A stretch of 20,907 bases of DNA, taken from the IMG/VR virus record IMGVR_UViG_3300025168_000838, positions 1-20,907 of that record; one strand, 5' to 3'. This document shows positions 3,126 through 4,569 of this stretch, piece by piece; positions within the stretch are counted from its first letter, which is position 1, and every line of letters starts with the position of its first letter. The notes under the pieces are model-generated. The model saw nothing but the letters and a program-made list of their open reading frames with translations, was not told where the DNA came from and ran no database searches. Source of the stretch: a virus. Made by a program: the position numbers and the translations under genes.

Positions 3126-3191
3126 ATGTTGAACCGAAAAATAAGTAAAAGTACAATTCGTTTTATTAAATAGTTTTTATGGTAATGACCA

Positions 3192-3274
3192 GATACCTTT
3201 TATAAGCCTGACCTTAAACCATTTTAATTATTTGCTCTAGGAATGGATACCTTGATTCTTATCAAGCCCTGACC
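3192..3274 (+). repeat. Imperfect tandem hairpin element, two copies
   Basis: Two related elements occur, at 3192-3213 and 3246-3274. Each reads GATAC, then a hairpin opening with CTT and closing with AAG, then CC(C)TGACC. The first hairpin is CTT-TTAT-AAG; the second is CTTGAT-TCTT-ATCAAG, so the arm is longer but pairing is kept on both sides. A third GGATACC lies at 3323-3329 inside the next structured segment. The matched flanks with different but self-complementary interiors suggest that structure is conserved. They could be binding sites for a regulator, RNA processing sites, or parts of one folded leader. Only the sequence similarity and the pairings are observed. Confidence 0.5.
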
Positions 3275-3367
3275 GGAGCCGGTCATACAGCACGAAAGCT
3301 GTAAGACGTCGGCCCGCGATGCGGATACCCGAATGTCGAAAAGGCGCTAGCGTAAGCTAGTTTTTTT
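3246..3367 (+). promoter_or_regulatory. Structured leader / possible non-coding RNA upstream of capsid gene
   Basis: Consecutive helices can be drawn. CTTGAT/ATCAAG pairs at 3251-3256 with 3261-3266. GACCG/CGGTC pairs at 3271-3275 with 3280-3284 (loop GAGC). TACAGC/GCTGTA pairs at 3286-3291 with 3298-3303 (loop ACGAAA). An arm follows with GAC and TCGG at 3305-3312 against CCGA and GTC at 3329-3337, enclosing CCGC/GCGG at 3314-3317 with 3321-3324. A last helix, CTAGC/GCTAG, lies at 3347-3360 and is followed by seven T. The arrangement, folded RNA then terminator-like hairpin then gene, resembles a transcription-attenuating leader. It is also compatible with a stand-alone small RNA or with RNase III-type mRNA processing. 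I do not recognise a named riboswitch or ribozyme core. The segment is more GC-rich than the AT-rich first half of the same gap. Confidence 0.5.
3346..3367 (+). terminator. Terminator-like hairpin with T7 tract before the capsid gene
   Basis: CTAGC (3347-3351) pairs with GCTAG (3356-3360) around a GTAA tetraloop. A G-T wobble can extend the stem, and seven T residues follow at 3361-3367. This is the shape of a Rho-independent terminator. The five-pair stem is short, so termination may be partial or conditional. It ends 23 bases before the capsid start codon and leaves the capsid ribosome-binding site (GAGGA, 3379-3383) outside the stem. It could equally close a small RNA ending here. Confidence 0.45.
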
Positions 3368-3390
3368 AAGACATTGATGAGGATCAAATT

Positions 3391-4215
3391 ATGTCAATCA
3401 ATCTAAGTCCTGTCGCCCAAACTATTTTCGACGACGAGGTAAAGCACGCTTTTCAAACTGCAGGATCTTTGCGTGATACCGTTACCGTAAGAAATGGAGT
3501 AATAGGCGACATTTATAAATTTCGTAAAATGGGTAAAGGTTTAGCTAATCAAAAAGCAACCCAAGCCGATGTAACTCCAATGGATGTATCGCACGATAAT
3601 ATATCTTGCACACTACAAAACTGGAACGCTCCAGAGTACACAGATATATTTGACGCAGCAGAGGTTAACTTTGATGAGCAACGAGAACTGGCGCAAACTA
3701 TAGCCGGCGCTCTAGGTCGTCGTTTAGATCAGTTAATTATTGACGCACTGGCAGCAGAAGGCAGCCCCGCTGGCACCATTGTCCACGGATCTGCAGGTAT
3801 GACCCTGGCTAAAGTGGTTGAGGCTTCGAAACACCTAAACGATAAAGGCGTGCCCTCAGAAGATCGGCATTTCGCCATTAGCGCAGCTGGTTTAGAAGAT
3901 TTGCTAGTTATTTCCCAAGTTACAAGCTCTGACTTTAATAGCGTAAGAGCTTTAATGTCAGGTGAGCTTGATACCTGGATGGGTTTTAAATGGCACATCA
4001 TCGAAACACGTAGCGAAGGCGGTTTACCTTTTGCATCATCCACAACGGAATCGTTTGCCTGGCACAAAAGTGCCGTTGGTCTTGCCGTCGGTATTGATCT
4101 TAAAACCGAGGTGAATTACATCGCACAAAAAACGTCTTTCCTTTGTAATGGTGTAATGAAAGCCGGTGCAGTTTCACGAGACGGCGACGGTTCAGTATCC
4201 GTTAGTTACCAATAG
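3391..4215 (+). CDS. Major capsid protein
   Basis: The 274-residue product follows scaffold and precedes a small accessory protein and the tail tube gene, the canonical place of the podoviral capsid gene. It looks like a compact HK97-fold protein without long insertions. An N-terminal arm (MSINLSPVAQTIFDDEVKHAF) leads to an extended E-loop-like strand region with NWNAPEYTDIFDAAEVNFDE. Then come the long spine-helix region (ELAQTIAGALGRRLDQLIIDAL), a P-domain segment (EDRHFAISAAGLEDLL), and C-terminal beta strands in which WHKSAVGLAVG and the ending DGDGSVSV are typical for small phage capsids. Strong context supports the call more than any single motif. GAGGA upstream of the ATG provides a good ribosome-binding site. 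The leader upstream may control its level. Confidence 0.93.
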   Translation: MSINLSPVAQTIFDDEVKHAFQTAGSLRDTVTVRNGVIGDIYKFRKMGKGLANQKATQADVTPMDVSHDNISCTLQNWNAPEYTDIFDAAEVNFDEQRELAQTIAGALGRRLDQLIIDALAAEGSPAGTIVHGSAGMTLAKVVEASKHLNDKGVPSEDRHFAISAAGLEDLLVISQVTSSDFNSVRALMSGELDTWMGFKWHIIETRSEGGLPFASSTTESFAWHKSAVGLAVGIDLKTEVNYIAQKTSFLCNGVMKAGAVSRDGDGSVSVSYQ

Positions 4216-4224
4216 GAGATAATA

Positions 4225-4491
4225 ATGGCTTATTCATTAAGTGGGTTGCAACAAATCGGACCCGGTGGAAAAGGTCCAAGGCTGTGGATGTACTCCACTA
4301 CGGACGCAATTGCAGCGATGAACTCAGAAGGATATTTCAATAATGCTTCTGATTTATTGCAAGTACGCGACACTATTATCGCGGTCGATTCAAACACACC
4401 TACAAATCATTTAGTGATTGTGCTTTCAAATGCTAGTGGTGTAGTTGATGTGTCTGATGGACTTGCAATTACAGAAACCGACAGCGATTAG
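4225..4491 (+). CDS. Small capsid-associated protein (possible decoration protein)
   Basis: The 88-residue product is encoded nine bases after the capsid stop behind a very strong ribosome-binding site (AGGAGATAATAATG), implying high expression, and before the strong terminator, so it shares the capsid transcript. The segment with the SYTLSGL-like start (AYSLSGLQQIG), the WMYSTTDAIAAMN motif, GYFNNASDLLQVRDTI and a final beta-rich VVDVSDG stretch is a pattern I associate with small proteins next to the capsid gene in many phages. Those proteins and N-terminal parts of some head-fibre proteins share the 'DxI.....GYFN.A...L...D.I' pattern. A role as a capsid decoration or stabilising protein is inferred from position and predicted expression level. 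Confidence 0.65.
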   Translation: MAYSLSGLQQIGPGGKGPRLWMYSTTDAIAAMNSEGYFNNASDLLQVRDTIIAVDSNTPTNHLVIVLSNASGVVDVSDGLAITETDSD

Positions 4492-4521: not shown

Positions 4522-4569
4522 AGAGGGGTAAGGGTTTCATATCAGAGCCCTTGCCCCTCTTATTTTTTT
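4522..4569 (+). terminator. Strong Rho-independent terminator after the capsid genes
   Basis: AGAGGGGTAAGGG (4522-4534) pairs with CCCTTGCCCCTCT (4548-4560), a 13-pair stem with one G-T wobble and a 13-nucleotide loop, followed by TATTTTTTT. This is a convincing intrinsic terminator in the + direction. Its place, directly after the capsid genes and before tail tubular A, parallels the T7 terminator T-phi after gene 10, which gives capsid mRNA in excess over tail mRNA. Some read-through is needed for downstream genes unless a promoter exists that I cannot identify. Confidence 0.88.

Follow-up and report, generated by a model that had tools for sequence, protein, structure and literature searches.

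The window analysed here is a virus record of 20,907 nucleotides (20.9 kb), in which a portal gene is followed by a scaffold gene and a major capsid gene. The gap at 3126-3390 carries the leader under study, and its features are listed in Table 1. Folding of the window leader was more favourable than that of all 200 of 200 dinucleotide shuffles (z -4.5). The original prediction had drawn five consecutive helices (3251-3266, 3271-3284, 3286-3303, 3305-3337 and 3347-3360) followed by seven T, 23 bases before the capsid ATG at 3391. All five could be drawn at these positions, and the T tract occupies 3361-3367. Further downstream, after a small gene located 3' of the capsid gene, a strong terminator-like hairpin of 16 pairs (4522-4560) is followed by a T run, which suggests a separate transcription unit for the capsid.

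Table 1. Features of the capsid leader and the adjoining gene in the window
Feature	Position	Strand	Composition	Basis
Sigma70-like promoter	3129-3157	+	TTGAAC, 17 nt, TACAAT	sequence match
Module copy 0	3190-3210	+	X then Y strand order, CAG-AUAC-C...G-C-CUG	module descriptor
P1 helix enclosing module A	3234-3279	+	3234-3241 pairs with 3273-3279	homologous CUC(C/U)/GGAG pairing in relatives' leaders
Module A	3245-3269	+	GG-AUAC-C UUGAU..AUCAA G-C-CC, M = C3250; contains helix 3251-3266	module descriptor
P2 hairpin	3286-3303	+	UACAGC/GCUGUA	A-U/G-C exchanges in relatives
Module B (3309-3332) with outer stem	3305-3337	+	GAC GU CGG-C-CCGC GAU GCGG-AUAC-CCG AAU GUC, M = C3328	MFE, homologous compensatory changes
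Terminator-like hairpin and U tract	3346-3367	+		present in window and near relatives
Major capsid protein gene	3391-4215	+		PF19821, phrog_3437

The leader is built around a recurring bulge module. In this module, two stems flank a bulge of three nucleotides, Y-A-M (M = C or A), with an A.C wobble on the side of the first stem and a closing pair, usually C-G, on the side of the second. Its first recognised form was two strings, X = GGAYACC and Y = GCCC, which make up opposite strands of a hairpin and can occur in either order. The window leader holds three copies. The stem of copy 0 is fully complementary in L001 (GGCCAGATACC...GCCTGGCC), and the MFE fold of module B in the window returned the 1x4 internal loop. 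In the Vibrio VP5-type phages, the A.C wobble is replaced by an isosteric G.U in both copies of the leader. Longer leaders, with two X-first modules in tandem 5' of a Y-first module, were seen in L028-L031.

Comparison with relatives supported four of the five helices initially drawn, the exception being 3271-3284. This hairpin was not kept in the relatives, which carry TGACCGGAGTCGGATCA there, and it competes with the P1 helix, to which its bases more likely belong instead. A possible pseudoknot crossing P1 was observed in four leaders of the compact window-type class (L033, L036, L135 and L138), with CAUGCC/GGCAUG in L033 and CAUACC/GGUAUG in L138. Two pairs of P2, 3286-3303 and 3289-3300, vary in the relatives (U-A/C-G and A-U/G-C/C-G) and ranked high among the column pairs, with E values of 0.95 and 2.6 that are individually not significant. 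The stem 3347-3360 is kept by compensatory change, with a pair varying between A-U and G-C, in near relatives only, whose stem sequences differ; the T run is reduced to three in L019.

With its hairpin and U tract between modules and gene, the leader of the window and its near relatives resembles intrinsic-terminator attenuators, whereas these elements are lacking in other module-bearing classes, being missing in the compact-class relatives and in the Pseudomonas-type leaders. The terminator was thus conserved alongside the putative sensor domain in near relatives only, and visual inspection of the relatives' leaders that were read revealed no alternative antiterminator pairing. Since the hairpin is limited to near relatives, general attenuation is unsupported. 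Hence, the attenuating riboswitch that had been suggested for this leader was not established, and the same grounds speak against the proposal of a phage small RNA that terminates at the T tract.

We have searched for the element in other phages. Leaders were read from viral contigs encoding relatives of the capsid protein, at least 80 in the first set. Further homology scans added Pseudomonas-type prophages, which include named Pseudomonas, Stenotrophomonas and Burkholderiales genomes, as well as Vibrio VP5-type phages and three more sets. The scans covered 576, 255 and 179 loci, with leaders analysed for the 80 matches listed per scan, and those capsid proteins of the sets that were tested belonged to Pfam PF19821. 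A gene-blind pattern scan of one strand order also returned many matches outside long reading frames that sit shortly 5' of capsid genes, including those of phages unlike the window. The module was found 5' of T7-type capsid genes (PF21703; L148, plus L128 and relatives), with the stem being kept through a G-C to A-U change in L501 of this set, and 5' of a scaffold-capsid pair of another family (L155, phrog_9953). In L148, a tRNA-like sequence (around 3965-4300, reverse strand) lies directly 5' of the two-module leader. Only one copy was detected by the descriptor in L105, L092, several L126-type leaders and HTVC203P, and none in TPWB-05 and Piluca, whose genes abut. The Pelagibacter phages HTVC010P and HTVC203P (L281 and L289) have an apparent single shortened module 5' of the capsid gene, reading GGATAAC in HTVC203P. 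A few paired modules elsewhere in the contigs fell in coding frames and were taken as chance.

Every module association found was with a capsid operon and none with a metabolic gene. This bears on a small-molecule riboswitch composed of two tandem aptamer modules in a guanidine-II-like layout. Such a device would account for the tandem arrangement of two identical small motifs in a 5' leader and for the terminator-like hairpin of the window class, but we consider it improbable given the exclusive link to capsid operons and an expression platform that is not conserved.

The density of the module was then compared between leaders and the remaining contig sequence. The leader set consisted of 229 unique leaders (57 kb), among the matches listed, of phages whose capsid proteins are homologous (PF19821). 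The descriptor gave 271 copies in these 57 kb, and the other 1,125 kb of these contigs contained 184 (4.75 vs. 0.16 per kb on the sense strand, about 29 times), an enrichment that is descriptive, as the descriptor was derived from these same leaders; the gene-blind scan used no gene information. The antisense strand of the leaders contained five copies (0.09 per kb). When the bulge was left open, AYAC and AYAA made up 218 of the 249 leader matches, with about 2 expected, and GUAG with a G.U wobble occurred 5 times (0.05 expected), all other bulges being near expectation. A role at the DNA level, as an operator or packaging site, was considered and is disfavoured by the strand specificity of the modules and by the presence of G-U among the pair types.

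The module stems are maintained by compensatory change. The 52 distinct module sequences had 94% of their cells paired (77% when shuffled), and 58 cells carried double changes, compared to 15.8 in shuffles; sliding the register lowered pairing to 15-51%. The selection of modules had fixed the closing and first inner pairs, and partly the second inner pair, leaving the outer and third inner pairs free. We have also evaluated covariation against a tree-keeping null, using our own re-implementation in the spirit of R-scape rather than R-scape itself. In the Pseudomonas-type leaders, the top four of about 17,000 column pairs were predicted module pairs, two of them with E<0.05, and the L126-type set gave two significant pairs. 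The covariation proposed for the leader was therefore detected in these two sets but not for single pairs of the window class (17 leaders, low power), in which P2 and hairpin pairs rank high. Whole-leader folding energy was a weak criterion, with several families not falling below their shuffles.

No Rfam 15 family matched the leader at the gathering threshold, and loose thresholds returned chance matches only, so that the leader fits no known RNA family. BLASTN against named phages gave short chance matches for the window leader and none for a Pseudomonas-type leader. The literature yielded no description of the element in a comparison that did not extend to the supplement of a 2017 survey (224 candidate structured RNAs). 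The original prediction of a folded capsid leader, conserved in relatives and without an Rfam family, was therefore confirmed, but the element begins further 5', extends over more sequence and occurs more widely than it stated. Taken together, the sequence comparisons identify it as a real, widespread and uncatalogued cis-acting RNA of phage capsid operons.

The base M of the bulge agreed across the copies of one leader, being C/C, A/A or, in VP5-type phages, G/G. Among two-copy leaders, a clear mismatch was found only in L233 and L376, with L429 pairing a real copy with an apparent chance match. Across the tree of 71 unique Pseudomonas-type leaders, changes of M fell on 12 branches for one copy and 13 for the other, with 10 branches common to both, compared to a mean of 2.3 and a maximum of 7 in 20,000 random placements. 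Position 1 of the bulge varied freely, changing on 19 and 12 branches with 2 shared (3.3 expected). Three-copy window-type leaders were all CCC or AAA, and in one lineage (F1) all three copies carried the same switched M. The copies thus seem to be read as a set, with M changing together.

These features bear on the view that the modules are ordinary 5' hairpins that only protect the capsid mRNA against decay, without being specifically recognised. The hairpins are indeed stable, GC-rich and located near the 5' end, upstream of the ribosome site. However, the bulge sequence, the wobble and the concerted M would then be needless, and several families do not stand out by folding energy alone, making this view very unlikely.

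We have then investigated what might read M. The capsid proteins of L223 (A/A) and L224 (C/C) are identical, which argues against the capsid protein as the reader of M. Autoregulation by the capsid or scaffold protein through the modules, as translational repression of the MS2 or P22-scaffold type, would suit an element confined to the capsid operons of several families. The MS2 coat-protein operator is a small bulged RNA element that controls structural or neighbouring genes. In the capsid leaders, however, the concerted M does not follow capsid identity, a comparison that tests M only, the modules lie beyond the ribosome footprint, and the same module is common to capsid proteins of three different families. 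We regard this explanation as highly improbable.

Among conserved proteins of 20 prophage contigs (families present in at least 12 of the 20), no residue column convincingly tracked M; this screen is blind to any host reader. One gap-free column that tracked M perfectly was rejected, as its reading frame runs antisense across the leader. Two other perfect scores were discarded because their frames are doubtful and their columns small, rich in gaps or mixed. No other column of the leader tracked M. Such a lack of tracking by the capsid, conserved proteins or leader columns points either to direct contact between the copies or to a reader outside the conserved phage proteins.

The latter could be a trans-acting RNA-binding factor (a host protein, a host RNA or an accessory phage protein) that binds each module and raises or represses capsid synthesis, with its specificity for C, A or G at M forcing the copies to agree. 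The unpaired bulge letters and the wobble are kept beyond the needs of a plain hairpin, and a copy number of one to three with free strand order fits independent binding sites. Three-copy leaders agree in M as well, and the switched M shared by the three copies of the F1 lineage is explained by a common reader no less well than by docking in pairs. On the other hand, the capsid protein is unchanged across the L223/L224 switch, no conserved phage protein column convincingly follows M in the 20 contigs, and M switches among phages of the same host genus. We therefore hold a trans-acting reader to be a tentative explanation.

The position of the modules relative to transcription and translation start sites was also analysed. 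A sigma70-like site was found just 5' of the first module in 31 of the 42 unique window-type leaders, compared to 4.5 expected in shuffles. In 157 leaders, the core of the last module ends at least 33 nt before the AUG, mostly 33-45 nt, a distance that we read as placing the module cores just outside the initiating ribosome. No sigma70-like promoter was seen by eye near a conserved hairpin of the Pseudomonas-type leaders L201-L280. This hairpin, GUCGGGAAACCGAC, follows CAAATA about 130-170 nt 5' of the capsid start and, in several cases, lies just 3' of a terminator-like hairpin trailing the scaffold gene.

From the position and specificity of the modules, we infer a role in setting capsid output. 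In the mechanism that we prefer, a host-type promoter, as judged from its sequence, would start the transcript shortly before the first module, and two or three bulge modules would fold directly 5' of the ribosome landing zone, leaving the Shine-Dalgarno region free. The copies would dock with M meeting M, producing a compact 5' fold that would shield the very abundant capsid mRNA and keep its start site accessible; the docked fold could be stabilised by a binder or a ligand. We give an even chance to such a twin-module leader, with its copies docking M to M and protecting the capsid mRNA while the start site is open. We place docking ahead of a separate reader because M is not tracked by any other leader column, by the capsid protein of L223 and L224 or, convincingly, by conserved phage proteins in the 20 contigs. 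A separate reader comes next, and we judge ligand switching and simple attenuation less probable. More speculatively, the leaders may represent a new RNA class spanning at least three capsid families, in which twin bulges in homotypic contact (C-C, A-A or G-G) would switch the timing or scale of capsid synthesis.

Structured leaders of capsid genes have been little studied in dsDNA phages. The module recurs in tailed phages that infect marine bacteria, Pseudomonas, Stenotrophomonas, Yersinia and Vibrio, in each case preceding the gene of the protein that they produce in the largest amount. Its concerted bulge letter provides a clear genetic signature, making the mechanism testable by single and double point mutants, which could uncover a novel RNA-RNA contact or a novel means of setting capsid output.

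Other known RNA elements were compared with the module. A kink-turn has a 3-nt bulge followed by tandem G.A pairs, whereas the module bulge lies between a wobble (A.C or G.U) and a C-G pair. The put antitermination RNA of phage HK022 consists of tandem hairpins in a phage leader; no paired modules were found in the 26-34 kb stretch of HK022, in which the put sites themselves were not located. In guanidine-II (mini-ykkC) RNAs, the conserved letters are those of ACGR apical loops. The capsid leaders use instead an internal YAM bulge beside an A.C wobble, have neither ACGR loops nor an Rfam match, and are linked to capsid genes. They share with guanidine-II the tandem hairpins bearing one small conserved unpaired motif. 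Passages in two reports propose that the guanidine-II hairpins contact each other (PMC9094411, PMC9300104), and a passage in a third questions this (PMC7544219).
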